Assembly: GCF_026914265.1 (NCBI RefSeq)
Contig: NC_069124.1
Span: 22,072,592 to 22,136,591 of the forward strand
Origin: Mya arenaria
Lineage: Eukaryota; Mollusca; Bivalvia; Myida; Myidae
DNA length: 64,000 nucleotides
Direction: 5' to 3'
The translations under genes were made by a program, and so were the position numbers. Under the pieces are notes generated by a model that was not told the origin of the DNA, searched no databases, and was given only the letters and a program-made list of their open reading frames with translations. This document shows positions 1,690 to 51,500 of this stretch, piece by piece; the first letter of the stretch is position 1, and every line of letters starts with the position of its first letter.

Positions 1690-4600
1690 ATTAATCGTTT
1701 GGAATACTTGTAATTTACAGTCATAATTTCATATTGTTTTATGGTAAATCTTTAGCGCTGGCATTCAACTTGTTGTAATGAAGTTTGATTGTTTTATAGG
1801 GTCAGACCTTTGGAGATGTTTTTAAAAAAATCCTTTAAAAAGTGAATGATATGTGTGAACGTCCCTTTATGAAGTATTAAATCACAAAAAACACACAATT
1901 AATTCAATATTAATACAATATGAGATAAAACAAGCAATAAGAGTCCTTGAATTAATGTTTATTTCGTTTTTCTTTCCATACGGAAGCTGTGATCAAATTG
2001 ATGTTAAAAGGCACGCTTGATAACCTGTATTTGGCGCTCATATTCATTGTTAGAATTTAAGTCGCGGGACGGTCGTCTAATATTTTCATTCCCGACATAT
2101 ATAGTTGTAGTCAAACGAATAGCATGTTAGCAAACAGTAGTGTATTGACTAATTCATTAAAATTTAATCAAGTGTCAACTGGAATACCGACATTGAAAAA
2201 CGGCATTTATCATTCATGTTTTGTTCTGTTAGCTGATATGAAACTATGATGTTATCGTACCGATTCAATGTGTGTGTAAATATTCATGATTTAGCCGTCT
2301 TGTGTATGTTATAATGAAGACTTACGCATTTGTGTACCCTATATAAAGGTTATCGTATTATGTCTACTTATCAATTTATGAAACAACACCTGTCTATTTT
2401 CTACAAAATAGACATTTTATAGAAATATGATTCCTTTAACATAACCGTCTCCGTTTCGACTATACACAAACAGCCCATTGGTATAAATACAGCCTGTATT
2501 TTAGTTAAGCATCTGAGAACAACCGGCTGTGAAATACATGTTACACACATATAATAATCTTACGATTAAAGTGTATACTTTGTTGCATATAGAAAACATT
2601 GCAAACCTTGAACCAAAATGAAAGTTTGGAAATTTATGAACTTTCCTCGTCGAGGTCCCAACCCTGAATCACTTTCGCGCGGAATTTACCGCCAAAATTC
2701 TACTACACGCACGAGTTACCCCGACACCTGTCGGTGACTCAACTACAAGGAAGATTAATTTTCCTCTAATCCGCTGACTCAAACTAGGAAAATGCAATCA
2801 CGTTGAAAAGTACAAAAACCTATATGGATGCCAATTGAACAATGGATGGCATCACAGGCAAGTTTACCGTGAGATAGTAGTAATATAATGTTAGTCAGAA
2901 GGAGGTTATTTTAATTGATTAACCACGCACTTGCTTGTGAGGATATATTAATTGAATCCTAAATCATTGGATTAAAACGCTGGTAAGCGATAAGATATCT
3001 TAGGTAAATAATTTGAAGATAAAAAGTTATCGTACACTTTACACATGTAGGGCACCTCAGTATGATAAATATATAATTCTTGTACATAAAGCAGCAAGAT
3101 ATTTCTTAATCATTGTAAGTACTCGAAAATACCAACTTTTAGCAGAAATATTGTAATACTTCCTGGTTCATTTTCCTTAATTTTCAGTTAATTTAATCGC
3201 TTTTCGAACATTTTGACAATGATTTTAAGTAAGTTTATTTCAATTAAGCAAAATTTTCTTTTAATTTAACCCTTCTTTTGGCGGACGAGCAGTTAGCGTC
3301 TTAATGTATATATATATTCAGAATAACGGGTACTTATGAGAAAAAGCCGTTGATATCGATATTTGAATCGGTCACGTTCTGCAATGGATATTACACTGGG
3401 AAAATATTGATTAAAGATTCTATAAATGGCAGTGAAAAATATCATTTTCATGTCACTGATCAATCTTTAAAAACAATCGGAAAGCATATAAACTTGAATG
3501 TTTTAAGTAGATGTTTGTTAGTTGCGAAAAGTGTATTTTTTATTTGTTTTTTTATATTCGCTTGCGATATTTTTTGTTTGTCAAAAGTTCAAAGGAACAA
3601 AAAATAAATGATGTTGCTTGAGCCATTCAGGTCATGACTAGTGAAACTCCCTCAGGTGAAACAGTACATGCATTAAGTTACAAAAACTAATACCGAAATG
3701 ACATCTTCAGCGGCTACAACTTGAGTAATCCGTCCTACGGAACTTACACAGTATGTACAGTACTGCTACCTGATGGAGTTTCACTAGTCAAACTAATTTA
3801 CATTTTGAAATACTCAATACATGACTCAAAACGGTTAAAACCTTGAATGTCATATCAATTGATCGAGAGCGTTCATTGTGGTACTTTCGGGGTTTTAAAG
3901 TTAAAGGTAAACCTGGTTTTTAAGATACCCTCAATGCTGCTTACTTAAACGTTTACTTTGGAATTTGATATAAATTAAAGAAGAAAAGACTCGAATGTAT
4001 TTTTTTTAATACGTGTTCATGTAAACCATCTATACAATTCAATATTATAAAGCGTTAAATCTATACATGCAGTTACAAACAACCAACTATTGTTAGCTAT
4101 AAGGATACTCCATCCAAATGGCATTAACTTTTCTGATTCGTTTTCGTACTTTTTCCCTTTGTTTATTATCAAAACATCTTTCAACTCCTGCTGGAAACAC
4201 ATTTTAATGAAATTCAGTTAAAACACATAATGCATTTTTTTTTTTTTTAGAAGGCTCACTACCTTCGCTAACTCTGTCCTTTTAAAACATCAAGATGTTT
4301 GATTAAGTGTTAACTTATTTATACATTTTAACTTTTGCTCAAGCCATAAATGTTTTAGAAAAGATCTGAAAAGAACGATATTTTTAAAGACATCATTATA
4401 TTGCATTAACATTCAGTTATTGATCAAAGTAAGCCATTTAGATTGAAATTCTATAAAAATAAGATTATTGTGATAATTGTGATGGATTTAACGAGGTGAA
4501 AAAAGGGTTTTTTGAAAAATGATAGGGAAATATTCATTGTAAATATTATACGGGCTATTCTTTTAAGCAACTTGGAACGAATTTATTTTTGTGCTTTTTT

Positions 4601-4888
4601 TCTTATATGAAGTAAGGTTTATAACACATACATAAACATAAGGGATACCGTTTACCACCTAATATAGTCATATTTTGAAAAATAAAATAAATGATATTTT
4701 GATTTAAAGAACTGAAACCAATATTTGCCATTGAATACTTAATGGAGTTCCCATGAACAAAAAAACTGATGAATCGATAAACAAACTACATTAGAGTCAC
4801 GATCAAAAATATATCTTATTATGCCATTTTAACCTGTGTAAGTTTATTTCATAGTTTAACAATCATACTAGTGAATCACAGATTAAAC
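1690..4888. other. 5' flank of paracaspase copy A
   Basis: No exon seen. Homologous, in patches, to 24,806-28,791 upstream of copy B: for example ACACATGTAGGGCACCTCAG at 3,040 and 25,757, and AAGCAACTTGG at 4,566 and 28,480. Promoter and any 5' non-coding exon must lie here but cannot be placed by eye. The open frames at 3,350-3,607 (+) and 4,017-4,202 (-) are not kept in the second copy and are unlikely to be coding. Confidence 0.5.
3635..3790. repeat. 156-bp segment with 23-bp inverted ends
   Basis: TGACTAGTGAAACTCC starts both ends in opposite orientation (3,635-3,657 and 3,768-3,790; 22 of 23 bases match). The centre is loosely similar to unit 2 near 26,510-26,580, but the inverted ends are not seen there. 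It is either a small foldback element or ends lost from unit 2. Confidence 0.55.
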
Positions 4889-7800
4889 ATGGATGCGAGT
4901 GTCAGTGATCTTCCGGGAAGTGTTTGGATTAAAGTCATAGAAGTGTTGGACACGAATCCTGCACGAAGGAACTGGAGAGCCTTAATTGGAACATTGAAAA
5001 CATCCAACATGATAAATCAGAGATACAAAATCACGTAAGTTGATGCTATGGAATATATATGATTAAACAACATGTTTTAGTATTTCAATTTATTACTATT
5101 TTAATACATATATTTCTCACAATCTGTAGAGTTGCCATTGCTTATACATTTCAAAAAGACACACACAATACACAGAAAGAACTAACTGTAGTGCATGCTG
5201 TTCTGCCAGTAGTGGGAACTTCATTTTTAGTTACATGAATATCATCAATACAAGAGTTAAATAAAAAGTCAATCAAAGTTCAAACAGCTGATCTTGAGTA
5301 TAATAATCAAGTGATGCGATTGATTTATGATGAGCAATATTTACGAGGATCATTAAAGAAATATACGTAGAATTTCTTATCATGATTTTGACGTATAATG
5401 TTTGGTTATTGTTTTAAAGAACAAATAGACGAAGTGTAATGATTCTTTAGTGTTTGGATAATAATGTTAAATAGTACAGTGTTAAGATGTTGAACACGGA
5501 ATAAAATGACGATGTTCAAGTGATTTAACATATAAATGTATGCGTAGCAAGTTACCAAACTTGTATTATTGATAAAATGTAAGAACAATACACAAATCCG
5601 AACTAGACTGTAAAAACAAGCTGTACTATTGATATACCTTTGCTATATTGCGGTTACATTGTTAATAATACAATAATTATCCTGTTTAGAGGTACGAGGA
5701 AAAGACCCAAACGACAATGAAATACTGTTACTCAATAGTCATGATTTTCACACCCGTTCAAACATATAACTACATCAAGCACAATCAACGTGTCTAATAG
5801 AACCGACGCATTAAGAGAAGATTCAAGTGATATGAATGAAAATAATTATCACCTCTATTAAAAAGAGTATATACAGTGTCCAGGTAACTTTTAAATGACC
5901 TTCGTATATACATATATATGCGTGTTTATTTGACAGTTATACATAACCATAATTTATCAATCATATTACTTTAAAATTCTAGCCCTCAGCAAGTCGAGCT
6001 CTGGGCTCAAGGGATCGGAAGAGAGAGTGCAGCAGGGAATCTGATTACAGAGTTGGGCTCACAAGGCATGACCGTCGGGGATCTGACAGCTCTGCTGGAA
6101 GAGACAGGCATCGATACGTATCTGCTGGGCCTCTCTAGTTATGGTTAGTGGTCAACATTATATTTTAACCAATGAGACAGCAAATTTCGTCGTCTGCATA
6201 AGTATCGTTCAAAATATTTAATCTTGGCCATAACTAAACATATTTTCAAGATATTCATGACTCTAATGATACATGTCTCTTTATATACCGAAGAAATATT
6301 CCATAGTTGGAATTCGCTTTCGACACCCCTTGTTAAGTTCGTTCCTGAAGTTTAAATGCTTAGTTTGTAGGTAAATAAAGTCATATTTCCAATCTATTTA
6401 TAGATTTTTCCTGTTTATATGTGCGCTTTTTAATGAACAGATATGGACCAGAATGTATGAAGAAGTCACCACACTGTTGATATTTTACTTTATAACACTT
6501 TTCAGAGGAAATAAAGATCACACATAGCCCAGGGAGAGAAATGGATATGAATAAGGGAGATACCCTGGTGTTGGATATAGCGGCCACGGGAAAACCACAC
6601 CCATGTTTTCAGTGGTTCTTTTGTCCAGATGGACAAAAGGAGTTTAATAAAATGAAGGGATGTACCGATAGAACGCTCACAATAATCAATCTCACGTAAG
6701 AATATGCACATTTATTCCTTTCATGTCAGTAAATAATAGCATGTTAAAATAAAAATTAAGGTAACTGGATACATAAACAAGTTGTTCTAAGGAGAAGAGG
6801 AAAATAAATTTTTTATAAAAAGGTTTTGTAAAATAGATTTCGAGGATTTATTAATAAATCGCTTAATTAATCTTTAAGATTATCGCGTTTTGGGTGATAC
6901 ACAACTCATTAAAATGTCCGTTTTTTTTGTCGAGCCTGTGTGCGAAGAGCAAGACATATTTATCACAATGGCGGTCCATGCTAATGCATGCGTACGTCGG
7001 TCTGTCCGTCCGGACTATACCGTGTCCTTGTAGCTTTTTGGCCATGCATTATAGGATTTTCAAGAACTTTCACCATGATGAGATGGTATGTTGCGCATAT
7101 GTCCCAGGTCTGTACCTCAAAGTTCAAGGTCACGCCAAGAGGTTAAAAGCTGAAATGATCCTTAATGTTTCTTTACCATACAGTATTGGATTTTCAAAGC
7201 ATGGCCATGAATGTTCACACTTATGAGGGGGTGTGTAGCTCAAAAGACACAGATCTGCATCAATGATGCATTAAAAAATCAAAACACTTTGCATGAAGGT
7301 TCTAAATGATTTAATGGTGTGTTACCCATATGTCAAGATGAAGCTTAGGGGGTCAAAGGTTGAATTTATCATTGTCCATGCTGTATCTTTACCATACACT
7401 ATAGGGTTTTCAAAACACTTGCCGTAAAGGTTTAACATGATATTGCGGTGTATGTATATCAACGATCAAGGTCACGATTAGAGGTGAAAGGTTAAATTAT
7501 TTCTGTTGAAATGACTGTACACTGTCCTGGCCTGAATTTAACCAAACGTTGTATGGCATCCTATGAATCTAACATGAATGTTCATCAAGATAATGTGGTG
7601 TGACGCACATATTACCCGCATCTGTATCTAAAAGTTTGTGGTCACTCTTAGATGGCAAAGGTTGAAGTATCTTGCCGGTCTGTATATGGACCATGCATTA
7701 TATGATTTACAAAAACTTCCCACCGAGGTTCAACATGAGGAAGAGTGTCGTAGGTTCCATGTATGTGCGTCAATGTGTCCTTCCGTTTGTTCGGACTGAA

Positions 7801-10800
7801 CACTTCCGGGCCGTATCTTTACTACGCAGTAATAATTATATGTACATTGTTTAACTCTATGTCATTCTGTGTTGCAATTGCATTTAAGAGAATAATGTCT
7901 GTGTCCAAGGCTTTTTAACCGGCTCGACATCTTGATTGATTACTAAGTATCCAGATACCTTAATGTTTAAACATACACTCAATACAAGTATGCATGATAA
8001 ATTACCTTGAAGCAATGGTTTTGTTCGGATATAAGTTTAACATTTATATTTGCAAAACATAAATGTTAAGTACTACCTTGGCACTTATTAAACGAGCTTT
8101 GGTTTGTACAATGAAAGTAGTTATAATTTGTACGAATGTAGCATTAATCTATTTTCATAAAAGATGGAAGAGGAAAGAACGTGTAGAATGCCTTTTAGTC
8201 CGGTATAACAGAATTTACTGATTTAGTGTAACTTTAAATTTGAGAAAGCCCCATAAACATAACATTAATTGCTTCATTATTCCTCTTTAACAGTTCTGCT
8301 AATGCTGGTAGTTATTCATGCCAGATCCACAACTGTTCCGATCCCCAGGAGACAAAGATTACCGAAATATCCCACGTGTCTATCACGCCAAAACAGAACT
8401 CCGCCTCTGATCGGCTTAACCCGCCAGGTACTGAGAACCTTGCAAAGATGCCTCATAATCTAACACCAAGTAGGTCTTGTTTTATGTTTTGCCTTGTTTT
8501 ATAATGATTCACGAAAGAAGTAGTATATGCGGTAGACCTTTATGTGGTACTTTAATCCGAGTGAATGCATTAATGTTTGTAATCACTTTGATAATTAAGT
8601 TCGTCAGTGGTAAACTGTTATTAATTAAAACGTGTTAACAAAGTAAATGAATTGTATATATGTACTGCCCTTGTTCACAAATGAATGGTGTTACTAGAAT
8701 AATAGATAGTTGATAAGCAAAGCAAGGTTCAGGTGTACAGTTCCTTCGAATATTTAGAACTTTAAGCATTGTTAACTTTTATGCAATACAGTACTTATGT
8801 GAAAAAACTACAGAACAAGCTCAGTAGCCAAACGATTAAACATAAATCCCGTTTAATCGCACAGGGTAAACGCCAAAGACATAGAACATAAAAACAAAAA
8901 ATCACAAACAAGAAACATGGAACAACAGCACAAAACTCCCAAAACAACTCACTACATATGCAAAAATTTGGTCTGTAAAGTGTAAATTGAATTGAGGTTT
9001 ATATTGTTTGTGTGCACAACCTTACTCTTATCCTAACAATCCCGAATAAGTAAAATCGTAAATGGTTAATCTTATCAAGGGATGAATTAACTTGAGTAAA
9101 CGTAAGAATAAAACGAATAGTAATAAAACTTATAGATGAACCACAAATTCTTCTAAATTATACAAACACGATTAAACAGCCGCTGACTCGGCCTTAGTTT
9201 AGTCAAAGTTATGCCCTAATTAACTAGTTAACATAACACACAGCAATACTTAGTTTAATATTTTGTGTAGACACTTACATATGTAGTTATGAAACAAACA
9301 TGACTCTTCTTCTGCATAGTGTATGCATTATATCACGGTGGTATTTGATCGTGAGATAATTCATCTAAGTAACACTAGACAAATGCCCCTTTTGCCTTAA
9401 ATTACAGTTGACCAACATACTGTTCGGGTAAACTTAAATACAGTTGGACCTAATACTCTTAAAGTATAATAATCAGACTGAGTTCTCGCATTCATACCAC
9501 GTTTGACATAAGGATGAGTTGTGTCAGATTCGGTATAACTTTAACGGGAGTTTCAATCAGGGCACACACCCAATTCTATGGAATTCTAGTAAATATTTTT
9601 AGATATTACCCGTAAAGTAATATATATTGTTGTGTGTCATACGATATGTAAACAAACATTATATATTTCATACATGTATACCTCTTTTTATAAAAAATAG
9701 CCCAGTTTTATGACGTCAACGATCCGTTAAATAATAATGGCAGCTCCGGACCTGTTCAAAAATTATTTTATTGAGCTTTGACGTAACAAAACTGGTGAGT
9801 GCGTCTTTGTTATTTACATAACGGGTAAAAGTTGTCGGAAGTAAACATTATTTACGTTGTTATATAAAATACATCAAAAGTGCTTATAAAATTGAATTGT
9901 AATAAAAAATGGTTGGTATATGATATGAAATATAATACATCACTTCGGGCCATATGGCATGATAAGCATCAGTCAGCTAGCCATTGGAGGTGAATGTACC
10001 TCGACACATACCTGGTCCTTATTATGTCCCCCAGTGGTGTGACCTATTCCCTGGTTAACTATTATATTACCTTTGCTTCTTAGCGAGGCTTCCAGCTCAC
10101 TTAGGTAAACGTCTTTTATCAGGATGGAGGTATATTATGTTTCTGTTAAATGCTACGTTAAATGCCTTTTCAAGCTCAGGTCAATGCATGCTTTTTTTGT
10201 TTTAGCGCCTATTCGTCACACTGGGCAAGAGCATGGTAAGATTATTTTTATGATTATTCTTAATGTTTTTAATGAAAAGAACTCCCGATTATGGGAACTT
10301 TTTATTTCCTTGGTCACATAACATTCCAGTAAAAAGCCACTCTAATCATTGAATTATTGATAAACATTAAGGAAAACGCTTTCGCACTGGTAATTGGATT
10401 GCTTTGATAAATTATATATTTACAAGTAATATGGGCATAGAAAACAGTTTTTACGTTGATGTGTTACTCCTAATATAATGATCTAGTAATGTTAAATTTA
10501 CATATATGCTATATTTATATGAACACCTGATATTTGACCATGCAATGCTCATAGATGATATATTAACAAACAACGGTCCTAGATTCTATAATATACACTC
10601 ATATGGGATATTTGATCATAGATGATATATTAACATGCAACACCCTAAAAACAAAACAAAAAAAATAAAAAACATGCAACACCCATAGACAATCTAGTTG
10701 CGTGTAACACATAGATGATCTAGTAGCATGTAACACCCACATAGATGATCAAGTATCATGCAACATAGATGATAAAATAATATGTGACATTTATATAGAT

Positions 10801-13800
10801 AACTTGGTTCACGTAACAATCACATATTAGATCTATCAATATTTGATACCTACATATATATTTTCATATATGGGTATTTTAATTAACGAACTTATATAAC
10901 AACGTAGATGATCTTTTTAACGTACATTTAATGTTATATTAACATGTACCATTTACATTGTTGATCTATAACATGTCAAACCTGAGCATTTGACGTATTA
11001 TAAGGTTCTTTGGATTTTAACATTACTCCGTTATCAATCGGGTTTCAATTTCGCTGATCATATAAGTAAACTTAGAACGGTAATATTTTGATATTCCTAG
11101 CAAACTTCGTTCAATAACAAATGTCTTTAATTTCTTTTAATTCTTTGGCTTTCATTCTAAATATTCAAATACTTATACCAATGTGTGTCCTTGTATGTTT
11201 CTTTTATGGCTATGGTGCTGTATTTCTATCAATGTTTACACAATTTATGGTATACTGTTATTTGTAAATACGGATGTGCATGTTTCAGAAATAAGGGTAA
11301 TTTCTCATCCAACATCAAAGGAGCTCGAGTTTGGTGATAGTACCTTGTTTATGGTGGAGGCTCGATGTAGTTTGCCCCTCCGATACCAGTGGATCAAGGA
11401 CGGAAAGGAAATTAAAGGTCAAGCATAAATATATATATAATATATAATTATATGCTTGTAATAAATTTCATATTTGTAATATATTTATACTGATATACTG
11501 TCAAAGCTTGACATATCAGGGCTAGGCCCAAATTTCTCAAATCATCTTTAGCATGCAAGGATTTTAGCCAAATTTCTTGCTCATATTTTATTTAACATAC
11601 AAAAATAGCTTTGGCGTTATTGTTCTTTTTTATTTAAATAGTCTCAGAATTATTTCAAAAGAAAAATATTGTTTAAGGTACATCGACTTTATTGAATAAT
11701 TGGCGCTTAGTGAGCATTTGATGCCCATGCTTATTTGCCTTTTGAAAATATAGATATACAATCAGCTAAACGATTATCGTAATATTATAATGGTGCAGTG
11801 TTTAAAATGGAGAGTTAAAGGAAGGAAATATAAATCTTACATTAACATTAAAAATAATATTTCATGAAAGGATTTTCATAAAACTGTAAGTAATATCACA
11901 AAGTAAGACGTGTAAATAAATATTTATTATTAATATAATACTGTGTATTTGTATTCTTCACTACAGGTGCAATTGGCTTTAAGTACGAGATCGACAACAT
12001 ACAAGACGCGAGTTACAAAGGCGTTTACCAGTGTGAGGTCAAGGCCATGAACATGACGGTAGACGGGCGGGAAATTCAGAGCAGTCGCGTGTTAACAAAC
12101 CCCGCCTTGTTGGATCTTCATACACAATCTGCCAATCTATATAAACGTTAGTAGTTTGTGAACCTCCGCTGTATCTAAAATAAAACTGAATTCACTTATT
12201 GACCAATATTGACCTCATTCGGAACTCGTGGCTATTTTTATCAAAATCAACCTTGGATTCACTTAAACGGCTTACATACTCATAAATCGGTATGTTTAAG
12301 TCCGCTTCAAGAAGATCGCGTAGTAATTTAGCAGTTAGACCTAATGACTTACTGACTTAAATCTTAGGAATCTTAATTATGTTTACAATAATGCACTTCA
12401 CTGTCAATCAATTTAAACTTAGATCAATAAATACAAGTTAAAACACTACATTTAATTAATTGTATTATTCGAACATTAACGAACTACTTCAACTGAGGTA
12501 CCGGCATAAATCTGAGGTTGTTTTCGATTCAAATGGCCGAGGAGCTCCGAATGTATTGAGCTTAAAGGGATATGTAACTTAACAAAGTTTATTATTCAAT
12601 CAGATCATTGGCATGCATGTAAAAAAACTTTTGGAAACGTATTGAATAAATAGATGGTATTCAAAGCTTGAAGGCAAACTGAACCTCAATTACTTTGGTT
12701 TGATTATTTCATTTTATTTTTCCAGCACATGACAAAGTGGCTCTACTGATCGGAAACTCTGATTACCTATCCGAAAATTCGTTAAAAGCCCCTCCCAATG
12801 ACATTCGGGAAATGGCTGACAGCCTCGTTTCAATTAACTTCAAAGTCGTTATGTTACTGAACTTAACCAAGCCAGAGTTTGAAAATGCTGTCATAGAGTT
12901 TTGTAAATTGATCGACAAAAACGTGTATGTAGTCTTCTACTTTTGTGGACATGGTTTCGAGGAAAGAGGAGTTTCTTATTTAATACCAACCGATGCGCCG
13001 TCAATGTCATCGCCAGGGGAGTGTGTGAATACAAGTCTTATCTTGCACAACTTCCAGAAAAAGAACCCGGCTCTGGTGTTCCTGGTACTGGATACTTGCA
13101 GAATATCGTAAGTTTACACACGTTTGTATTTGTTTTATTGGCTCAATATTAATACAAGCCACTTGTATGATAGTTTTTAAATGAACAAATACAGAAACAA
13201 GCTTACTAGCCAAACGATTGAACATAAACCCCGTTTAATGGCACATGGTAAACGCCAAAGACATAGAACACAAAAACATAAAATCACAAACAAAAAACAT
13301 GTAACAACAGCATTAAACTCCATAAACAGCACAGTGCATATATACTATATAAAAAAACTAGGTAAGTTTATCAAATTTTGTTAGGTAAGGCCTTGGAATG
13401 GAAACCATATGGATGATCTATGCATTTACAACGTTGACACTGATCTGACTAGATACGAAAAAGTACACACACGGCATACACAAGTACAAAGACCACAATC
13501 AGACCACAGACACATTTAAATAGTTTAACCGATAAATGCTGGGATTTCCGCTTCAAAACAGTCAATGAAACTCGAGTTATTTGAAACACGACACTACTGG
13601 AGGCCTAATCTAGTTTATATAGCCATAACCTAACACTTGCCATAATTCAAATTAGGGCCTGGTATATCTCATAAAAACTTGGCTTACAGCAAAATGTTTT
13701 TCTCATTTATTTCTATTCTATAGCTATATATAGTTACTTCCATACTTAAGGGGATGATTATCTTATGTGTATGTTTATCTTTTTGTCATTCAGGGGCAAA

Positions 13801-16800
13801 GGCAAATCCTCAGAGCCACCAAGGAAGTTGTTAACATCGGCACAAAATCCAAACGTTTGCTACTGCTATGCCACGTAAGACATTTTAATTATGATTTGTT
13901 TCTTTTTGTAGTGTAAACATTTAATTTCTAGGTGCAAAAGATTGCAAAAGTGACAGAGCAGAATAGAATATGTTTTACCAGAATATGCAAATGGCAAAAT
14001 TTCGTACAAAATGGCGACAAGTACAAACTTTCATACACGTACAGCCATTATTTTTAAAATCAAATTTACAAACAAAATATGCAAAAATAATTAACATGTT
14101 TGTTACATGTAAGTGATGCTAATAGCTGTAAATAGCTGACGTCATTTCCATTTAACATGTAAACCGATGTACAAATGGTATTGTCATTTCAAGCTTGTCA
14201 ATAACGTTAAATGTTGACGCCAAGTTACCATATGTTCATTTGACTTCATTTAAAAGGGGATTGCATACGGATAACTGATATGTAAAATAAGTTGCCGACA
14301 ATACATAACAGATTAAAGTGCGGTTCTTTGCATTTTATTTCCTTATTTCAACTGCATATATATTTTTAAACTTTTTATTTGCTAAGGCAGACTGTGTTGG
14401 ATGTTTCAAACGATAACTGCAACATATCTTTGAGAAGTTTTTGCATTAGGAACTCTGAATTGTATCCCTTCGTCTGCAGATAGAATCGCGATCTCTTATA
14501 ATAGAAGTCCTTTGGTTTTACCTATCAGTTTATTATTATTAGTTTTATTTTAAAGTTTCCTTAAATTAAATAAATTATACTTTGATGAGATTTACCATTT
14601 ACGAGTTTACTTTATTCGGAATTGTTGGGGTAAGAGTGGCGTTCTGCACACAAACTGGTTAAAACCCCCGGTAAATTTATATTTTGATGACCGCTCGATA
14701 GCGGTATTTAACAATCTTTCATAAACACATTTTTATGTAGTATTTTTATACAGTGTTAATTGTGGAGTTTTGTGCTGTTGTTCCATGTTTCTGGTTTCTG
14801 CTTGTTTGTTTTTTGTTCTATGTCTTTGGCGTTTACCCTGTGCCATTAAACGGGGTTTATGTTTAAACTTTCGGCTACTGGGCTTCTTTCTTTTTTTTCA
14901 AATAATTAAGTATTTACATATAAGTACATGATTTTGTATATACGTAATTGCACTACTATCTGTATGCACACGAGAAGTATTTTCAATCGCTTAAATTGCA
15001 GAAAAAGCATTTATCTATGATTGATAAATAATTTAATCTTATAGAAATCAGTATCGGTTTTGTAAAAAAAAAGGATTGATATGTATTTAATATATTATAT
15101 GAAACTATGCATGAATTGTTATGAAGTTAAATAACTAGTGAGGAAACGTTTATCGAGTACAATCGATAAATTGTGCATGACAATGATGCTATGTCGGCGG
15201 CAATCGATAGTGGTTCTATAAAATCGATGTCGCTAATAATATCTTCGGTAACTATATATTTTTTCTTATATAAAGTATATACACTCTTGCGCACAGTGGT
15301 CAGAAATTGGTTCAGTGTGAGCATTATTTGATAAGCATATAGAGAGCTGAATTTTCTACCTTCTGTACTCTGTGCGTAGGAGTGTATAGAGTAAATGTCA
15401 TTTTTGCTTTCCGGTAAATTTTCGTTGAGTTCATTGTAACAAGGAAGGTCACTCTCTTAGACAAATGCGGAGAACATTTTTTCTTAAAAACTTACCAGCT
15501 CTCCCAAAATTACAAATTTTTGGTATCGTTTGTTATTAACAAATTTACTTTTTTGTGAAAGTCTTATGAAATTAAGATATTTTAATGAAATCTTCAATAT
15601 GACAGGTTATTGAATGTTAAGCTGGTTTACAAATATTTTATGCGCTTTTACATGGATAAATGCTAAGATAACTTACTTGATGGGGTGTGTATCATATTGC
15701 AGTTGATGTGCAATTATTAAGTATGTGTTTTCTTCGCATGTGTTTTCGTTAAGTTATTAAAGTCAGAAAAGGTTTATGGATATTTACTTACTGTGTTGAA
15801 AAAAGCATGAATATATCATCACACGTACTTATTACAGGTTAAACCATTTAAATGAGCATGATTATATTATGTTTAAATAATGTATTCCTAAATGATATCA
15901 TTAACTTTCGATTATTTTCCGATAGCTAATCGAAATACTTGGTCCGATTCTATTCGAGTATCAATAGCAAATGGAGTCCGATTTTAAAACACTATAAATA
16001 ACATCATATGGTTTTTCACACATACGCATTGACAGGCATGTCGGACAAAGTGTCTTTTACGCTGAGAATTGATCTCTACATATTAGCTGTCCCCCTCACC
16101 CCTCTTAACGGCGTTTTATCATGGAAAATTGAATACCGCTTAGCTGGTTGTAGAGGTCATTGACCTTGATGCTCTTATCTTCGGTCGAAACAAACAGTTT
16201 GACTCATTTTTTAAATCAAACTTAAACCTCATATTTCAACTGTTCTTCCGAAGCAGAATGAGAAGGCACTATATCAGCAGTAAGTTATGGCATTTTGGTT
16301 TTCCTACATCAAGCATACTTGCTCCGTGAAACGTATATCACGAGCAGTTGGTTGTGGACACCTTGTAGTCAGAGGTCATATTAGTTGTTGAGTTTCTAAC
16401 ATAATTTTATTTTAGCTCTTGTAATTCATGAGGAAAGGTTCATGGTATTTTTATAGCCCTGGCGTGGCAAAAACGTTTGGGAGCGAAAGAATTTTGTAGA
16501 ATGCTTTAAACACGACCACCAATCAAAATCTGCGTGATATATTTTCACATGAAACGTAGTGCATACTCGCATGTGGGTGGGGAGTGGATGTGTTGGCGAG
16601 CCCGTGTGTATAAAAGTGTGTTCGTGCGTGTTTTCGTGCGTGCGTACGTGTGCTTTTTATAATTAAAGGCTGGAAATATAACAATCATATAACGTTTGAC
16701 ATTACAGGAGTTTGGGATTGAGCGCGTTTGAACGCAATAGAGAACAGATAGGTCTCCTGGTATGCTTTCTTGCACCTTTGTTAAAGAGACCCATCGGGAT

Positions 16801-26182: not shown

Positions 26183-26220
26183 ATTAAAGATTCAACAAAT
26201 ATATAGGGGATATTTGTTTG

Positions 26221-37700: not shown

Positions 37701-40700
37701 GTCTCCTGATACGATATCTTGCCCCGTTGTTAACGAAACCCATCGGGATTGACAACCTCGTCATTGAACTTAAAGAAGGTAGTTTTATGATATGTCTTGA
37801 AACTGTTGATATATGCATATATATGTACGAAATTTCTTAATAAAGTTGTTCAATAACATACAATCATAACCGATACGCGATAGAGCATTGCTGCAGCCCG
37901 ATCATGTATACTGTTTGTATATGCCGCCATTGTTTAAGCCCCTGATGCAAGCTTCTTCATTTGAAATCTCTAGAATTATTTCTTCGGGCCGGACTATACA
38001 ATATGTTAAAGTAACAAGATTAAAAACTAGAAAATAGATAGGAAATTTAAGAATATTTCCTAGTTGTCTTATAAGAACACCATCACCGGCAAGGAGTGTC
38101 ATCTGACAGGAATATTTCTTTCTAAAGCATATTTTCTTATCCACAATAGTAATAAACAGTATACATATGCAGTTTTAAAATACCATCTATAGTGGAAATA
38201 CATCAAACTATTTATCACTAATCTCCATCACTCATGCATAGCAAACGAATGGATATTGCTTTATTGATTGTAGGGCTAAAGGTCGTGGTCACTGTTGTTC
38301 AAAATAGAATCATGCTTTCCCCCATTATTAAATTGTATTGATAAGTTTAGGTTACCTAAGAAAAATGTCAATTAACCTCAATTTCACTTAATATTTTTAT
38401 GGTGATTAATGGAGCGAACTTCAACAATTTGAAAACAAGAAATATTCTGAAACTCTTATCGCCATGAAATGTACGACACAATGTTTCAGTTGTAACGTTC
38501 CCTTTAAGTTGAGCATTAAAGTTACTTCAATAATCTTGATAAGAGTTTGTTCGAATGGAAGTTTTTGGAGCAAACTATTTTAGAAGAATTATTTTGAAAC
38601 TTTATACACACGCTCATCATGCCTTGCAACATAGGCTAACACATGTTTTATTTAGATTTACCTTTATATCAGTATATTTAGTTTTATAGTATATTAAGTA
38701 AATTTTAGGAGTAAAATAGTTCCTAAATATTGGAGATTTTCTTAGAAACCTGAAACAAATTGTAATATGAAGTGGGAAGCACATCTTTATTAGCCACATC
38801 CTTTTCGTCTTACAGTTCCTTATTTATGTTCCATTGACTAAACTTTAGGTAAACTACCTTCAAACTTTCGACTACTGTACGTGTTTGTTTATTTCTTCAT
38901 AAAAATATTGTTTATATCTTCATAGTAACAGGTAAACAATCAGAAACCTTTGCCTCAGATTTTAAAGCATTTCGCGTTGGGCAAATCTCAGACCCCTTTT
39001 GGTGGTTTAATGAATATATTTTTCATTATCAAACCTTTGGTAATTCAAGTTTCATAAAGTGCTGTTTTTAAACAACAAGGTAAATGGTTATTTATTACTA
39101 TGGATTTATCTGCGCACTATTAAGATTGCAAGTTTCATTGGAATATTTGATTACTTTGACAAAGCTCACAAACATTGATATTTTAGTCAATCTTATAGAG
39201 TTTAGCCGTAGTCCTAAGCACTGTGATAAACAACTTCCGGAGATAAGGTCGAATGTTGGTGAAACGCGGAGATCACTGACGGACGAAATCACTGACCTCG
39301 GACAGCAACAAGCGTACAAGGCTAGGGAAAGATTATGGAGTAACTATAACAGTAAGTCAATGTTAACGAGTAGCTCTCTAAACAGGTCAATTACGGAGTA
39401 AAATGTAACATAATATTATTTAATATATATCCCGTCAAGTCTATTTTATAGAGGGCAATAACATTGTTTGTATAGCTAAGTCAATGTTGAATAATAGCTT
39501 TATTGTGTTATGATTATAGAAGTTGTTATGTAGTAGCTATCTTGGTAAGCTTATTTATCCAGTAGCTGGATTATATTATACGTATAATCAATGATATGGG
39601 GTAGCTATCACTTTAAGTCAATAAGGTAGCTACAGTGTATAATGGTCAAAGTCAATGCTATCAAGTGATAATCATGATAAGTCAATGGTAGGAAGTTGCT
39701 TCATGTATCGTTATAATTTAATTTAATGTTATAAAATCCAGCTTTTCCACTGTTATGACAGTAGCTGTACTGGTTATCATTGTTATAGAATGTAGCTGCA
39801 TTCCATACAGGATACCAAATGCTATGGAGCAGCTACTATGTATATAATTAATTTTACAAAATTGGACATTGATAACTGGAAAACAAATTACAGGAAATAC
39901 AACTTACTTTTATATTTCCATAGACAAGCCGACGAACCGTGACCTGACTTTCCCATTGCTTGGTATTGTTCTACAGCTTGACTTCCAGTCATACTATAAC
40001 AATCTCCTAGATGTATTTGTGTTGGTACAGGAGCAAGGAGAGACCCAACAATGTGTTGCTTTCATTTCCAACTTCTCTCCGGTAGGAATACAAGTGTTGA
40101 TTGTACCTGCACTTCATATAATAAGTGTCTTCCCTTCACCTTATGTCTAGCATGTGCTATAATGCATGCACTAGGAATATATTATATTCAAATTTCATTT
40201 ACTATCAGCTGAAACAGACTTAATCCTGATTTCATTCAGCCTTTTAGATTTATCCACTCTGTGTAACAGCTTTTCGAATGAAAAGGGAAGGAATAATTAC
40301 CGTAGCACTAAGGGCATCATTGCAGTACAACGTTTTTAGCTTGTTTGTTTAACGAGGAACAATAGTTTAATCTGTTAATGCCGTGTAACTTGCCTACATT
40401 TTTACGAGGAATATCATGAAATGCCAACAACAGTTTTATTCCTTAACAATTATAACTAAAACATGAAGAAAATGTATAATCGAGCAATTGTCTTAGCAAT
40501 GATTTCATCTTAGGCAGCGTCGATATCGGCGGCGTCTTGCTATACCTTTGACCATGGTCAAAACTCAGAACCTATTCAAGATATTCAAATGAATCTTGGT
40601 ATGTATGTTGCCATCTACAATATGCACATGTAAAGCATGGCGTTTAACTTGTTATTACCAATTATTGCATTTAAATTGCATATTCTTTCATAGCAGGTTA

Positions 40701-42044
40701 TGCTCTTCAAATGAGTCGGCTGGGGTTTATCCATATGTCAATGTATTTTAAATATGACAATTATGAGTGACTATAGTTGGGTCTTATTCAAAACAGATTG
40801 TCAAATGTTAAAATCAGCATTTCACAATATCACCGACGCTTTTTTGTTAAAGTAGAAAGTTGTGCACAGTGTTCATATACCAAAAGGCATTATGTTTGCT
40901 CATTTCACATGAACACTACAAGTGTATATAAATTGTTTTGTCTAAATAGGCTGTCAAACAAATATATGAATTCCATGCTAATGTTCATGTTAACTGTGAT
41001 TGTACAAGAGTTACCTTTGCATTGATTGCCTTTCTTAGATCATCTCCCAGTATGGCAACACGGATGCGTTTAAGAGGAACGGAAAACATGGAACGAGGAC
41101 CACTCTTCAAGATATACAGAAGCTAAAGGTATTGTCATTGTGATGCCCAATTCGAAGAAATGTGGGGATATAAGTTTGCAAATAATGATAGGCCTGTCAG
41201 TTGGTTAGTCTTTGTGCCGGTATGTAGACTGTGTTTTGCTTGTACAAGAACTCCACAACAGTTTGATATTGGACCATTGAACTTCAGAGTATATTGCCCT
41301 TGATCGGTAGATAAACCATATTGCTGTTGGGGTCAGTTAGTCAAAGGTCAAGGTCACTATTAGGTCTGGTATTATATTTGTTTTGCACAATACCTTGAAA
41401 ATGATATGACTACTGTAATTCCATGACACTTGCCCAGTAGATTCCCCAAATGTTTTGGAGCTCAGAATATAAAGATCAAAGAAAATGTCGTTTTAAAAAA
41501 GTATTAGCTCACACGCTTTTCATCAAATTGTCCTTAGTTTAGTTCCCATCATGGAGCTTGTGAGTCTTGTCAATAATATGGGCCCATGTGTGATCGGCGG
41601 CATGGTTATAATCGAACTTAATACACTTTAAACTTGGCAATAACTAAAAAATGTTTAAAATATTGACAGTCAAGTTTTATACATTTTACTAGTCACACGC
41701 ATATGGTTATCAATACTCATAACTCTTATTTTGATAATGGTCCAGTTACGATCTTTCAACGAATGAAAATATTAACAGACGAGCATTTGCACCTGCTTGT
41801 GTCGCTCTTGTGTCATAACCAAGTTTTAACTGAGCATCTTTCCTAAATCTTCTTACAGGACAATCTGGTAGTTGACATCAGTGTTGTTTTTGTGCACCGA
41901 CGGGATGGGCGACAGTACAGCAGTACTCAGAGAGTTGACCTGGGACTTCCGCTCGTGTCAAATTTGAAACTGTGGAAGCCCGCAATAGGCTTTGAGCCCG
42001 CGTATCGGGAGCCTATTGAACAAGAAGAAACAGACAGTATCTGA
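28792..42044 (+). CDS. MALT1: MALT1-like paracaspase, copy B (14 exons, 727 aa)
   Basis: Tandem paralogue of copy A with identical exon lengths: 28792-28937, 30559-30719, 30937-31126, 31783-31958, 32765-32794, 35582-35710, 35950-36129, 36366-36747, 37184-37264, 37657-37778, 39199-39351, 39924-40081, 41039-41128, 41859-42044. The frame is open throughout. Same domain order: death domain, Ig1, 10-codon microexon, Ig2, caspase-like domain with His413 (CGHGFEERG) and Cys462 (LDTCRMS), then Ig3. The caspase exon differs from copy A at 9 of 124 residues; the Ig1-Ig2 linker exon is far more diverged. The C-terminus reads EPIEQEETDSI, where PIEQEE fits the TRAF6-binding pattern P-x-E-x-x-acidic; copy A has PLEQDQ. 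Donors of exons 2 and 4 are strong (GTAAGT). An in-frame ATG at 28,768 could add eight residues (MSVNNRLN) and is absent in copy A; I keep the shared start. Confidence 0.93.
29646..29773. repeat. 128-bp near-palindrome with GAAA loop
   Basis: Two 62-base arms pair at about 49 of 62 positions around a central GAGCCC-GAAA-GGGCGA. Arms contain GTATTTGCC/GGCAAATAC. Lies in intron 1 of copy B within about 900 bp missing from copy A. Probably a foldback/MITE-type insertion. Confidence 0.7.
30247..30400. repeat. degenerate repeats around TTAGGCGAGTTTTG
   Basis: ATATTAGGCGAGTTTTG occurs at 30,247, 30,297 and 30,341, followed by two decayed copies near 30,360 and 30,380. Spacing about 50, 44, 18 and 20 bases. 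Part of the extra DNA in intron 1 of copy B. The open frames of both strands across it (30,153-30,474) are by-products. Confidence 0.7.
33000..33800. repeat. degenerate ~30-bp minisatellite, intron 5 of copy B
   Basis: Homologous to the 10,540 array. Recurring ATGATATATTAACATGCAAC and ACATAGATGATCTA. Resumes at 35,190-35,290 after an insertion. Confidence 0.65.
33801..35189. mobile_element. ~1.4-kb insertion in intron 5 of copy B
   Basis: Interrupts the intron-5 minisatellite and is absent from copy A, where the array runs on into CATTACTCCGTTATCAAT. It contains a strong palindrome (34,255-34,400) and a 136-codon open frame at 33,958-34,368 with one hydrophobic segment; that frame runs into the palindrome and shows no recognisable domain, so I do not call it a gene. 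Clear terminal repeats were not found, so the element class is unknown. Confidence 0.5.
34255..34400. repeat. 146-bp palindrome with perfect 18-bp core arms
   Basis: AGGGTGTTTTGCGGAAAC (34,303-34,320) faces its exact complement at 34,333-34,350 across a 12-base loop. Outer arms pair less well (GGCCGAGAGTGTA against TACACTCTCGGCT). GC-rich compared with its surroundings. Confidence 0.88.
35190..35290. repeat. resumed intron-5 minisatellite, copy B
   Basis: CATAGATGATC and ACATGTAACACC units continue here after the insertion, then match copy A from TTTTAACATTACTCCG-like sequence onward. Confidence 0.55.
36830..37050 (+). repeat. dispersed repeat, second half (intron 8, copy B)
   Basis: ATGATCTATCAATGTTAACAC, ACCACAGACACATC and GATAAATGCTGGGA correspond to 13,415-13,640 of copy A, so this half was present before duplication. 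Confidence 0.6.
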
Positions 42045-45189: not shown

Positions 45190-47725
45190 CATATACAAGC
45201 AACGTGTTATTGAATGAAGCCCTGCTGTAATAAAAGTGTACGTAGCTGGAAAAAGCTTTGATGTATTAAAATAGAGAGCAAACACGTAACTGAACGAAGC
45301 CTTGATATAATGGAGAGAAAAACTCGTAACTAAATAAGCCTTGATATAATACAGAGAAAACCACGTAACTGGACGAAGCCTTGATATAATGGAGAGAAAA
45401 ACACGTAACTGAACAAAGCCTTGATATAATGGAGAGAAAAACACGTAACTGAACGAAGCCTTGATACAAAAGAGTGAAAAACACGTAACTGAACGAAGCC
45501 TTGATACAAAAGAGAGAAAAACACGTTACTGAACGAAGCCTTGATATAATGGAGAGAAAAACATGTAACTGAACGAACTTGACATAGAACACATACAAAG
45601 CCTTGTCATAATAGATACACATGCTGCTGAACGAATACTTGTCAAAAAAGTCATAACAGGCGCACCTGAGCCTGAACAAAACCTTGCTAATTCAAGTACA
45701 CAAAATACAGAATAAAGCTGACATAGATGATACAACTAGCATACATATAACTGTACGAAGTATTGTCATAATCGGGACGCATGCTGATTAACGAAGCCTT
45801 CCTAAAATAGAGACGCCTGTTACGGAACGAAGCCATGTCATAATAGACACACATGCAACTGAACGAAGCTATGTCATAGTTACTGAACGAAGCCTGATCA
45901 TAATAGAGACACATTTTACTGAACAAGCCTTTTCATAATAGGGACGCATGTAACTGTTCGAAGCTATTTAATATTAGGGACATATGTGACTGAACGAAGC
46001 CTTGTCATAATAAAGACGCCTGTTACGAAACGAAGCCTTGTCATAATAGATACGCATGCAACTGAACGAAGCCATGTCATAATAGGGACACATGTTACTG
46101 AACGAAGCCTTGTCATAAAAGAGATACATGTAACTGTACGAAGCCATATCATAATAGGGACGTTTGTAACTGTACGAAGCCATGTCATATAAGGGACGTA
46201 TGTGACTGAACGAAGCCTTATTATAACAGACACGCATGTGACGGAACGACGCATTGTTCTAATAGACACGCATGCTACTGAACAAAGCTATGTCGTCATA
46301 GAGATATATTCTGCCAAACGAAGCTTTTCTATCATAAACACGCATGTTACTGAACGAAGCCTTGTCATTATATACACGCATGGTACTGAACAAAGCCATG
46401 TCCTTATAAGGAAGCATTCTACTGAGCGTAGTCTTGTTATAATAGAGACGCATGCTGCTGAACGAAACCTTGTAGTTTTAGAAACGCATGTTACAGAACG
46501 AAGCCTTGTCATATTAGAAACGCATGTTACAGAACGAAGCCTTGTCATAATAGACTCGCATGTTACAGAACGAAGCCTTGTCCTAATAGAAACCTATGCT
46601 ACTGAACGAAGCCTTGTCCTATTAGACACGCATGTTACGATGCATTGTTTTAATAGACACGCATGCTACTGAACGAAGCCATGTCCTAATAGAGACGCAT
46701 GCTACTGAACGAAGCCTTGTTATAATAGAGACGCATGTTACTGAACGAAGCCTTGATATTATAGACACGCATGTTACTGAACGAAGCCATGTTGTAAAAG
46801 AGATATATTCTGCCGAACGAAGCTTTCTATAATAAACAAGCATGTTACTGAACGAAGCCTTGTCATAATAGACACGCATGTTACTGAACGAAGTCTTGTC
46901 ATAATAGACATGCAAATTACTGAACGAATCCTTGTTATAATAGACTCGTATGTTACAAAACGAAGCCTTGTCATAAAAGACTCGCATATTAAAGAACGAA
47001 ACATTGTTATAAAAGATTCGCATGTAACTGAACGAAGCCTTGTCATAATAGACTCGCATGTTATTGAACGTAGCCTTGTTACAATAGACTCGCATGATAC
47101 TGAACGAAGCCTTGTCATAATAGACTCGCATGTTACTGAACGATGCCTTGTAATAATAAACACGCATGCTACTGAACGAAGCCTTGTCGTTTTAGAAACG
47201 CATGTTACAGAACGAAGACTTGTCATATTAGAAACGCATGTTACAGAACGAAGCCTTGTCGTTTTAGAAACGCATGTTACAGAACGAAGCCTTGTCTTAA
47301 TACTATTAAGACAAGGCTTCGTTCCGTAACATGCGTTAAGTTAATAGACATGCATGTAGCGATATCTTGTTTTAATAGACACGCATGCTACTGAACGAAG
47401 CCTTGTCATAATAGACACGCATGCTACTTTACGAAGCCATGTTCTTATAGGGACGCCTGCTACTGAACGAAGCCTTGTTATTATAGACACGCATGCTACT
47501 GACCGAAGCCATGTCGTCATAGAGACATATGCTGCCGAACGAAGCCTTTCTATAATATATACGCATGTTACGGAACGAAGTCATGTTGTATCAGATATAT
47601 ATGCAACTGAAAGAAGCCTTGTTTAAATTCCTTTAGATTGATCTCAACAAAGACATGTTTGAATATACAAAACTGTCACTTAACGAAGCCTTGTTATAAT
47701 AAACATACATACAACTTAACTAAGC
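45190..47725. repeat. 36-bp minisatellite, unit 2 array
   Basis: About 70 units of the same 36-bp family as the 22,245 array. The left part (45,290-45,570) is a sub-array with GAGAGAAAAACACGTAACTG; the middle and right use AGACACGCATGTTACTG. Long open frames occur on both strands, for example 46,202-46,672 (+), 46,910-47,329 (+), 46,622-47,167 (-) and 46,774-47,226 (-), with a 12-residue peptide period. These follow from a 36-base period with few stops and are not taken as genes. Confidence 0.93.
47271..47335. repeat. inverted minisatellite unit forming a hairpin
   Basis: 32-base arms 47,271-47,302 and 47,304-47,335 are reverse complements except for one base, with a single C between them. 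One unit has been copied in reverse orientation. Confidence 0.93.
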
Positions 47726-48241: not shown

Positions 48242-48532
48242 ATTGCTGCGAAGGTAACACGTAAAGTACTAAACATTATTAAGTCGATTTGTATTTGTTA
48301 TCATTCATTTTCCAAGTCGCACACACTTTCATGCACAACCAACTCGATTTCTTGTATCATCGCTATCAATTACGCAGGTTGCCCTATAGATATCACACAC
48401 CAATGGAGAACATTTGAACTAATATCCACTATCAAAAATAGATACTATCAAACATTGTACTAAAATATCCGTTATATATACCAGAGCATCCATTTAATTG
48501 CATCGTAAAGATACTGGATACAGTTTTACAAA
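48242..48532. other. short flank before the receptor gene
   Basis: Up to about 48,370 it matches unit 1 (24,386-24,515); after that there is no second copy. It should hold the receptor promoter; nothing specific can be placed. Confidence 0.4.
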
Positions 48533-51500
48533 ATGAAAGCAGAACATGTAAGTACATGGAGGATATATGTTTATTTCAGTGTAAGATCGTATTTTCTTTC
48601 ACGAGTGTCATAGAAAAACATATTTTCACGAGTGGCGAATTTTATTATTTTTGAAATAAGTAGATAAAACATTAAGCTACCCATTCAGAAACTAAAACTT
48701 ATTATACACAATAATAAAGTTTCAAATAAAAAGACAAATCATTTTATCATTGAATATCGTATTAATGGCGGTTTAAAAAAATCGAAATCAAGGTCACTTA
48801 TGTTGAGCTATTCAGTGCATGTTCTTAAAAGTAATTTATAAAGAAAGGATAAAGTTCATCCAATCTTTTATCTATAAGAATTGAATGGATAGGATTGTTG
48901 TTGCTTTTTCCAGTTTTCACTCCGGGACGTTTTTTTCATTTGCGCTTGCCTTCTGTGGATAATAACCGTTTCATCGGGTAAGAATAATATTTTTCAAATA
49001 ATGTCATAACTGTAAAAAGCCAAGATTAATATTTATTTGATGCAAAACAACATTCAATAAATTTCTGCTCTGCCATTTTATAATGAACAAAATATCAATT
49101 TTTACTGTCAGGTATGACAAAATGCGCTCATTTTTAGTTGTATATAAACTGCAAATCTCAGTTGGGTAATAACATAAACCCTCTATGAGAAACTATTTAT
49201 ATATACATTATAACTTACATAAATGTGTCAATAGTTTGTATATTAAAAGTCGATCGGTTCTTATATCACTGTATTTGAAAACAATCCAGTTTTATGACGT
49301 CAGCGGTCCATATCAAATTTGGCTGGTCTTAACCTTGCCAAGAATATTATATGGACCACTAAAGACATATAACACATCACTTCGGGCTTTATGGCATTAT
49401 AACAACCGTCAGTCCTGACGCCTCGGTATAGGTACACTTTCGGGGGCTGACTGGCCGGTCCTTATAATGTGATATGACCATCAGTTGTGTGTATCTTTTC
49501 CTTAAATATAACCATGTCGTTAAAATACTTTACCCACGATATCAAGTATACAATAATATCATGTTAACAGCCTTATGACTATCTTAGGTAAAGACATAAT
49601 CGCCAAAAACGACACGATAGCTGTTTACCAATCAAGTACGTACGACAAGTGTTATGCTTCCAATGTTGTTAACAATATGACACTTCATACTTTGGTCGTT
49701 CCGGACTCAACACTTTGCCTAACATGTAGCGCAACAGGCGGGAACGAATCACCCTGGCTGCAGATTGACTTTGGCAGAAAAACGATGATGCGAAACTTAC
49801 GTATTTTTGGACGTGATTATGGTATGTACTTCATTTTTTAATGTTATATTTGTCGAAAGTATTGATACCAATAAATAGCTGTACACATGACCTTATATGC
49901 TTAATAAATAAAAAAAGTATTAAAACTGATAACCTTTTTTTACTACTTAATGATGTTAGTTCTAAACATGTGGACAAAATTGCATGCCTATAGTGGTATT
50001 TCGTTAATTACAGATACACCCGGACAGAGTAGCAATCTTCTTGTGTCAATCAGCAACACATCCCACTTTCTTAACCAAAACTTCTCTACGTGGGAAGATT
50101 TTGGATGGATAAATGCCTCCGATCCATACAGAGGGATCATGTGGGACCTTGGAGTAAACCGTGTTTTACAGTACCTCGTTTTCAGACGACCTTGGCCATC
50201 GGTTATGGCAATATGTGAGGTGGCAGTGTTTAATACCGGTAAAATATGTTTAGCAAATCTCTAATAACTTTAACACAGCTGTTTGTATTAAACGTTGTGT
50301 TTGTTTCAAGTCCTTCCGAGTCTAATACCTAAATTAAATAATTGCAGTATTTAATCATATGAATGTCCGTATTTCAAGATATGTTTTTCTAATCCCGTAG
50401 TGAACATGTAAAAACCTTCTACTGCATTGTATGTATGAATTCCTCTAATTGAAATCCCGTATACAATTGTTTTTGTTATTTCAAAAAATGCTTTACATGT
50501 ATTAAACAAAAGAATGACTAAGTAAATCAGTTGATATGTGGACTTATTTCACCGCGCTAAGATACAACGCACTCGACTTTTGGTCTCGAAAGATATCGAA
50601 TCTACGCAAACAACTCGAAGTGATATTAACCGATTCACATTCTATTCCATATGCGTTTTTGCTTTATCCAATTGTATATATTCAAAATCATTGTATGTAA
50701 GTTTATAGCCATATTCTTAAACAGAACAATATTTATTAATGTTACACACAATTTCGAGTTTGGGCGACAAATATCGGTTTTAATTTCGAGTGAGTTCTTT
50801 ACAAATGTTTATTGACCATGGCAAGGCGGTCGCCCTAACATTTATCAATAACGACAGTTTCATGCTTTTGCAATGCTTTGTAGCGTTTTGTCTCGTGTTT
50901 GCTTTTCGGGGACTTGGAACTTCACCTTGAAGCAGGATATTTTTTAAATGTTAAAGAACTTGGATTGTCCCCGTAGATTGAAAATACTTATTTAAATAAT
51001 AGTTTGCCATCCTTATAATTGGCATCCATCTATATCAAGGAATATTTCCTGCTGCAATAAGAACATAGAACACTCTGAGGGTTTCAACTTGAAATGATAA
51101 GGGGTTATGTATTTATTTAGATTGTGAGAAAGGTTCCTTCGGGGATAAGTGCGAAAGCATGTGTCATTGCAAGGATGAACAACCGTGTGACAGCGTTACT
51201 GGGAAGTGTTCTACACCTGGATGCTATGCTGGATGGAAAGAGGACTCGTGCAGTACACGTAAAAAAATAAGATATCTGACGATCTCCTTAACTGTTATCA
51301 CCCTCATGCTCTTTTTGCCATGTATTATTTTGTGACATGATGGTAGATGAATACACTTGTAAACTATGTAACTAGCTTTGAAAATATCAAACATGTAAAT
51401 TATTTAAAATCAATCTTCTTGAATTGGTACCAACTGAATATAGAATGCTTCACAACAGAATGCTCTGGTGACGAATTCGGGGTAGACTGTTCTTCGACAT

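Follow-up and report, generated by a model that had tools for sequence, protein, structure and literature searches.

Bilaterians are described as typically carrying one type 1 paracaspase, with jawed vertebrates as the named exception (Staal et al. 2018, PMC5978004), and the oyster paracaspase homologue is reported to cleave human CYLD at R324 (PMC5978004). Here we analyzed a stretch of 64,000 nucleotides of the Mya arenaria genome (C3:22,072,592-22,136,591, referred to as the window), which contains a head-to-tail duplication carrying two MALT1-type paracaspase genes and part of a neighboring lectin/EGF-type receptor gene. The assembly seems to hold a multi-copy build-up of this usually single immune signaling protease gene. 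All seven candidate matches to its p20 exon in the searched genome (1,216,080,610 bases, 18 contigs) were located on C3, six of them as three pairs (two in the window, 22.28 and 22.31 Mb, 24.52 and 24.55 Mb) and one as a single match (8.14 Mb, minus strand). Each pair belongs to a larger repeated block that contains both units of the tandem duplication (units 1 and 2); the block of the window is termed copy 1 and the two blocks downstream of it copies 2 and 3. An initial annotation made from the window alone had recognized the tandem pair but missed the larger block and the seventh MALT1 gene, both of which extend or lie beyond it. Outside the window, the sequence compared comprised 200 kb downstream, 60 kb at 24.5 Mb, shorter stretches totaling 12.9 kb and eight stretches of ~3 kb.

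The tandem duplication is composed of the following features (positions here and below are those of the window unless preceded by C3):

1681 to 24803, plus strand: unit 1, ~23.1 kb, from self-BLAST and edge alignments, edges good to ~10 bases
24804 to 50303, plus strand: unit 2, ~25.5 kb, from self-BLAST and edge alignments
24797 to 24806, no strand assigned: unit 1/unit 2 junction, from edge alignments, shared with copy 2 and also with copy 3, where a 25-base deletion adjoins it

Self-BLAST of the window, a self-comparison of the kind that the initial annotation had proposed, revealed colinear direct repeats running from 1,686 (paired with 24,811) through 24,519-24,740 (paired with 50,047-50,262), with 71-88% identity between the units when minisatellites were excluded. 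Plus-strand matches of at least 150 bp between the units numbered 69, many of them within minisatellites, compared to none in 20 first-order Markov shuffles. With the minisatellite excluded, 11,161 of the 21,123 unit-1 bases could be aligned to unit 2, at 80% identity across 8,983 noncoding bases and 88% across 2,178 coding bases. Sequence leftward of ~24,797 tracks 50,303 and sequence rightward of ~24,803 tracks 1,681, so that the two copies are head to tail and colinear and share one junction. The size of ~23-25 kb and the breakpoint near 24,805 that had been proposed earlier thus held up, as did the placement of the right breakpoint within the receptor gene, where inspection of reading frames located it in the intron that separates the second lectin-like exon from the first of the EGF-like exons.

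Each unit contains one MALT1 gene, with exons modeled from conserved reading frames and splice sites:

4865 to 20860, plus strand: MALT1-type paracaspase of unit 1, from homology and a splice-site gene model; the ATG common to the six clustered copies is at 4889, and the 24 bases ahead of it were included from the alignment with unit 2
4865-5034, 5983-6143, 6506-6695, 8294-8469, 11289-11417, 11967-12146, 12726-13107, 13794-13874, 16708-16829, 18269-18421, 19011-19168, 19679-19768, 20675-20860, plus strand: the 13 exons of the unit-1 gene
28768 to 42044, plus strand: MALT1-type paracaspase of unit 2, from a gene model, Pfam and PDB matches; ATG at 28768 or 28792
28768-28937, 30559-30719, 30937-31126, 31783-31958, 35582-35710, 35950-36129, 36366-36747, 37184-37264, 37657-37778, 39199-39351, 39924-40081, 41039-41128, 41859-42044, plus strand: the 13 exons of the unit-2 gene

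As noted in the initial annotation, both genes are intact: all 13 exons are equal in length between the units and free of internal stops, GT-AG flanks all 12 introns in both, and the aligned coding sequence amounts to 2,154 bases when counted from the shared ATG. In the unit-2 protein, Pfam identified a caspase-like C14 protease domain (Peptidase_C14, PF00656, E 2.5e-22) preceded by immunoglobulin (Ig) domains (Ig_3 in two stretches, I-set) and followed by a MALT1-type Ig domain above cut-off (MALT1_Ig, PF18703, E 1.6e-9). The PDB sequence search with this protein yielded a MALT1 crystal chain as the closest match (E 6.2e-44) as well as the MALT1 Ig chains 3k0w (E 7e-7) and 3bfo (E 3e-4). The C14 domain of the remaining copies was judged through alignment to unit 2. 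The catalytic His and Cys, positioned via the MALT1 alignment of this search, lie in the motifs FCGHG and LDTCR in all six clustered copies and in GHG and LDICR in the seventh gene, and the motif PNDIREM is likewise present in six of six clustered copies. The acidic residues D, D and E of the arginine pocket, presumably corresponding to human MALT1 D365, D462 and E500, were located in unit 2 by the same MALT1 alignment and are aligned and kept in all six; for the seventh gene, the exon with the E lies outside the sequence compared. Judged from the gene models, both genes are complete MALT1-type (type 1) paracaspases, and their products are predicted to be scaffold proteases of the CARD-coiled-coil/Bcl10/MALT1 type that are cytosolic and Arg-specific.

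The larger repeated block spans most of the window:

1 to 55371, no strand assigned: portion of block copy 1 in the window, from the comparison with copy 2; the block extends upstream to at least C3:22069592

Copy 2 is colinear with the window from position 1 to ~55.4 kb and is located 198-204 kb downstream (~+0.2 Mb), while copy 3 is colinear up to ~53.3 kb, the equivalent of the window position to which it was compared, at +2.43 Mb downstream. Homology continues upstream of the window for at least the 3 kb compared, with 97% identity to copy 2 and 88% to copy 3. A single locus of a diploid animal can hold no more than two alleles, so that at least two of the three distinct blocks would be real loci, which amounts to at least four clustered MALT1 genes, assuming that the assembly represents one diploid animal. 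An open frame of 165 codons (55579-56076), retroelement-like by impression and without a Pfam match, adjoins the end of the block homology. The seventh MALT1 gene (C3:8140361-8140741, minus strand, p20 exon), 14 Mb from the window, is 84% identical in the p20 exon; its exons 5-8 are open and bordered by AG and GT, and it is possibly the older single gene.

Outside the minisatellites the block copies diverge by 0.1-10%, and 1-kb steps along the window coordinates revealed a mosaic. Between copies 2 and 3, divergence is 0.7-1.9% at 5-13 kb and 0.1-1.8% beyond 27 kb, and the window differs from both by 3.8-9.6% at 6-13 kb. At 14-21 kb, copies 2 and 3 differ by 3-8%, while copy 3 differs from the window by 0.3-1.8%; the window and copy 3 share 98.85% identity over 14,363-20,609, with copy 2 diverging from either of them by 2.6-8.3% per kb. 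Copy 2 is in turn close to the window at 2-5 kb (1.5-1.7%) and, with the minisatellite excluded, at 21-26 kb (1.8-2.6%). This switching of the closest relative along the block suggests sequence exchange between the blocks.

The number of synonymous substitutions per synonymous site (dS), a comparison that the initial annotation had also called for, was 0.24 between the two full-length MALT1 genes of the window. Across the blocks, full-length dS ranged from 0.239 to 0.250 in all nine cross pairs between units and from 0.008 to 0.063 in all six pairs of same-unit copies, while exons 5-8 of the seventh gene differed from those of the clustered genes by a dS of 0.54-0.62. With the seventh gene as outgroup, the tree of exons 5-8 recovered a unit-1 clade (support 100) and a unit-2 clade (support 98). 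The dS values together with this tree place the split from the 8.14 Mb gene first, the tandem duplication second and block copying third. The presence of unit 1 as well as unit 2 in all three blocks likewise indicates that the tandem duplication predates the block copies and that the two units are not unmerged haplotypes.

The initial annotation had further proposed selection on both paracaspases, and the substitution patterns (pairwise counts for the nonsynonymous to synonymous ratio dN/dS, parsimony counts for stem and post-split changes) are in line with this proposal. Full-length dN/dS between the window units was 0.41 (bootstrap 0.33-0.53). For exons 5-8, the unit-1 stem before the block split exhibited a ratio of 0.22 (15.5 synonymous, 12.5 nonsynonymous changes) and the unit-2 stem a ratio of 0.34 (17 synonymous, 21 nonsynonymous). 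A copy that had long been neutral would approach a dN/dS of 1, and both stems look constrained on these exons. Between unit 1 and unit 2, nonsynonymous and synonymous differences per site were 0.049 and 0.103 for the N-terminal region, 0.151 and 0.247 for the first Ig region, 0.140 and 0.375 for the linker, 0.078 and 0.189 for the second Ig, 0.063 and 0.212 for the protease region, 0.096 and 0.239 for the last Ig, and 0.081 and 0.072 for the last 21 codons. Among the larger regions, the ratio was lowest for the protease and highest for the first Ig. Because the catalytic and arginine-pocket residues are kept, while the first Ig and the linker following it are the most different, the paralogues most likely have the same enzymology and contribute to dosage and/or diverge in the partners that they bind.

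Downstream of the MALT1 genes, we located the receptor gene and its remnant:

49557 to 54211, plus strand: receptor gene, in unit 2 and beyond, from open reading frames and weak Pfam matches below cut-off; exon edges approximate, 5' exons not located
About 49557-49827 and 49960-50240, plus strand: two lectin-like exons
About 51.1-53.7 kb, plus strand: five EGF-like exons
About 53.9-54.2 kb, plus strand: transmembrane exon
24519 to 24740, plus strand: frameshifted unit-1 remnant of the second lectin-like exon, reduced to its 3' part, with the upstream exon lost

The matches of the receptor to F5/8 C-type (FTP lectin) domains were weak and below cut-off (PF22633, E 0.005; PF00754, E 0.02). A search for PDB relatives of its lectin domain returned 41 matches, all to antibody chains (E 2e-4 to 0.6), which we judged to be due to chance. 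Genome-wide, the receptor exon gave 32 matches at E<=10, 28 of which were located in C3 21.2-24.6 Mb and four, all weak, at 33.8-34.3 Mb. This cluster of lectin/EGF-type receptor exons lies on the minus strand in parts and on the plus strand near the MALT1 blocks, and several of its exons are paired at an offset of ~2.22-2.31 Mb. Unit 1 had been thought to hold the 5' part of the receptor, but it contains no usable 5' part: the remnant is homologous only to 50,047-50,262, the upstream part is absent, and what is left is a half-exon whose frame is shifted by a 5-base insertion. A functional stranded receptor exon was rejected, as the insertion and the upstream loss are common to all three blocks; copy 3 additionally carries the 25-base deletion at the junction. 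Since these changes are shared, the remnant would have decayed before block copying, unless later exchange propagated the change. In copy 3, the receptor exon at C3:24560018-24560290 contains an in-frame TAG, and this receptor may therefore be broken.

Considered as a whole, the data are best explained by a tandem duplication with selection on both genes, later block copying with exchange, at least two real loci and predicted Arg-specific proteases, a reading to which we assign a probability of roughly 0.86. According to this reading, a 23-25 kb segment comprising a complete MALT1 gene and the first receptor exons underwent head-to-tail duplication, and its downstream breakpoint fell within the receptor gene. 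Both proteases were then kept under purifying selection, as indicated by dN/dS, while the stranded receptor piece decayed, as indicated by the shared frameshift. Subsequently, the entire two-gene block would have been copied again, giving the three blocks of the assembly, and the mosaic pattern would reflect patchwork sequence exchange between them. That the two units of the window are instead unmerged haplotypes or another assembly artefact is extremely improbable. Bivalve genomes are described as highly heterozygous (PMC10663159), but the full-length dS of 0.24 between units compared to at most 0.063 among same-unit copies appears to exceed allelic divergence, and the pair with its identical junction was found together at three places; we therefore rejected this origin, and the tandem duplication in the window is confirmed as genuine. 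It is also quite unlikely that each pair includes one non-functional MALT1 duplicate which has persisted by chance, in view of the constraint on both stems and the 13 exons still open in both window units after a dS of 0.24. For exons 5-8, the ratio between the units of 0.30 (0.18-0.50) is nominally above the 0.22-0.23 of either window unit compared to the 8.14 Mb gene, a point in favor of such a duplicate. Several observations weigh against our overall reading, and some of them also favor a non-functional copy. Stops were present in two of the six clustered genes, namely a recent nonsense codon in exon 6 of copy-2 unit 2 and a stop four codons ahead of the normal end in copy-3 unit 1, the exon 4 of which is also six bases shorter. 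Since the block split, nonsynonymous changes in exons 5-8 equaled the synonymous ones in window unit 1 (12 of each) and exceeded them in window unit 2 (nine versus two), with five of each in the other four clustered copies combined. Other points on this side are the exon 5-8 dS of 0.110 between the unit-1 genes of the window and copy 3, the largest among five same-unit pairs, and the mosaic, which could stem from old shared haplotypes rather than inter-block exchange. An N-terminal death domain is expected in MALT1, and the 105 correctly placed amino acids gave no Pfam match and no PDB death-domain chain at E<=10. Finally, the number of blocks is a count made in the assembly sequence, and the genes are predicted from that sequence.

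Whether the third block is a locus of its own touches on the number of genes rather than on the tandem pair. Copy 3 lies within a segment of ~0.65 Mb that matches the surroundings of copy 2 at 96-99% at sampled points, and it may for this reason be the misplaced other haplotype. At slightly better than even odds, copies 2 and 3 are two haplotypes of one locus, with an unpurged alternate contig placed at a distance of 2.2 Mb in scaffolding. Under this arrangement, haplotype A would carry the window block and copy 2 with four MALT1 genes and haplotype B copy 3 with two, a case of structural heterozygosity. This is consistent with the mere 0.1-1.8% per kb between copies 2 and 3 from 27 kb on and with the matches at an offset of 2.22-2.31 Mb, including 21.78 with 24.09 Mb (96.7% over 450 bases), 22.21 with 24.43 Mb (99% over 1.5 kb), and 22.35 and 22.37 with 24.59 and 24.62 Mb (equal receptor scores). 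It also agrees with the receptor exons at 23.03, 23.56 and 23.93 Mb, which have no partner at a similar offset further right among the 32 matches, with the right segment being ~88 kb shorter at the place of the window block according to receptor match positions, and with the probable source assembly, described as diploid-aware with haplotigs purged (PMC10663159). Conversely, divergence between copies 2 and 3 reaches 7% at 3-5 kb and, with the minisatellite excluded, 3-10% at 13-26 kb, and copy 3 resembles the window block instead at 14-21 kb. In addition, the receptor exons at C3:21740037 and C3:22256128 lack a partner among the 32 matches, C3:22182348 matches C3:24227859 at just 83% identity and a different offset of 2.05 Mb, and the stretches compared contain no N, though gaps may have been filled. 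At somewhat less than even odds, the three blocks are all genuine segmental duplicates carried by a single haplotype, which would amount to six clustered MALT1 genes in addition to that at 8.14 Mb. Three separate places in chromosome-scale sequence, the structural differences between the segments surrounding copies 2 and 3, and the location of the window and copy 2 within one N-free stretch of 264 kb, for which gap filling means that a single original contig is not assured, are in favor of this arrangement, whereas a dispersed direct repeat of ~0.65 Mb at 96-99% was judged less usual than a misplaced haplotig. Overall, a misplaced alternate haplotype without the window block would fit the offset pattern slightly better than a real dispersed duplication. 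An extended scenario, in which receptor and MALT1 were co-amplified as one cassette in the receptor cluster, the two haplotypes of an animal differ in the number of copies and the blocks still exchange sequence, would make this locus a copy-number-polymorphic bivalve innate signaling module; we consider it unlikely.

Repeats are found in both units and flanking them:

22497 to 24257, no strand assigned: 36-bp minisatellite of unit 1, from repeat detection
45270 to 47622, no strand assigned: 36/40-bp minisatellite of unit 2, of the same family as that of unit 1

Both sit just upstream of the receptor, contain long open frames with repeats such as THVTERSLVIID, and mostly diverge more between the blocks than their flanks. 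A further 36-bp minisatellite (61228-62861; 45 copies, 92% matches) exhibits long open stretches in several frames. An interspersed repeat at 829-1106 was present on many chromosomes at 88-90% identity among the matches listed.

The duplication mechanism itself is ordinary; the repeated amplification of a typically single-copy gene lifts this case above routine. Several constrained MALT1 copies near a receptor cluster constitute a natural test of whether the scaffold and protease functions of MALT1 can be split between paralogues, as well as of the way in which individuals differ in their number of copies of a central immune regulator. Within the titles and abstract openings of the open literature, most subscription papers being outside this scope, an earlier report of this MALT1 cluster was not found.

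The genes described here share with MALT1/type 1 paracaspases (PMC5978004) the Ig domains, the C14 protease, the MALT1-type third Ig, the catalytic His and Cys and the aligned arginine-pocket acids. They depart from the full MALT1 family in that the death domain was not confirmed by sequence search, and from the typical single bilaterian type 1 paracaspase (PMC5978004) in that seven p20 exons are present on one chromosome. As in the triplication of PCASP1-3 described for jawed vertebrates (PMC5978004), there is more than one type 1 paracaspase per genome; unlike that triplication, the six copies here are tandem and block duplicates with a dS of 0.008-0.25, a much younger kind of event. A gene content that varies between copies is also reminiscent of the presence-absence variation outlined for the Mytilus pan-genome (PMC7653742). 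In contrast to the Mytilus case, the amplified gene here encodes an intracellular signaling protease beside receptors, and the copies were compared within one assembly.

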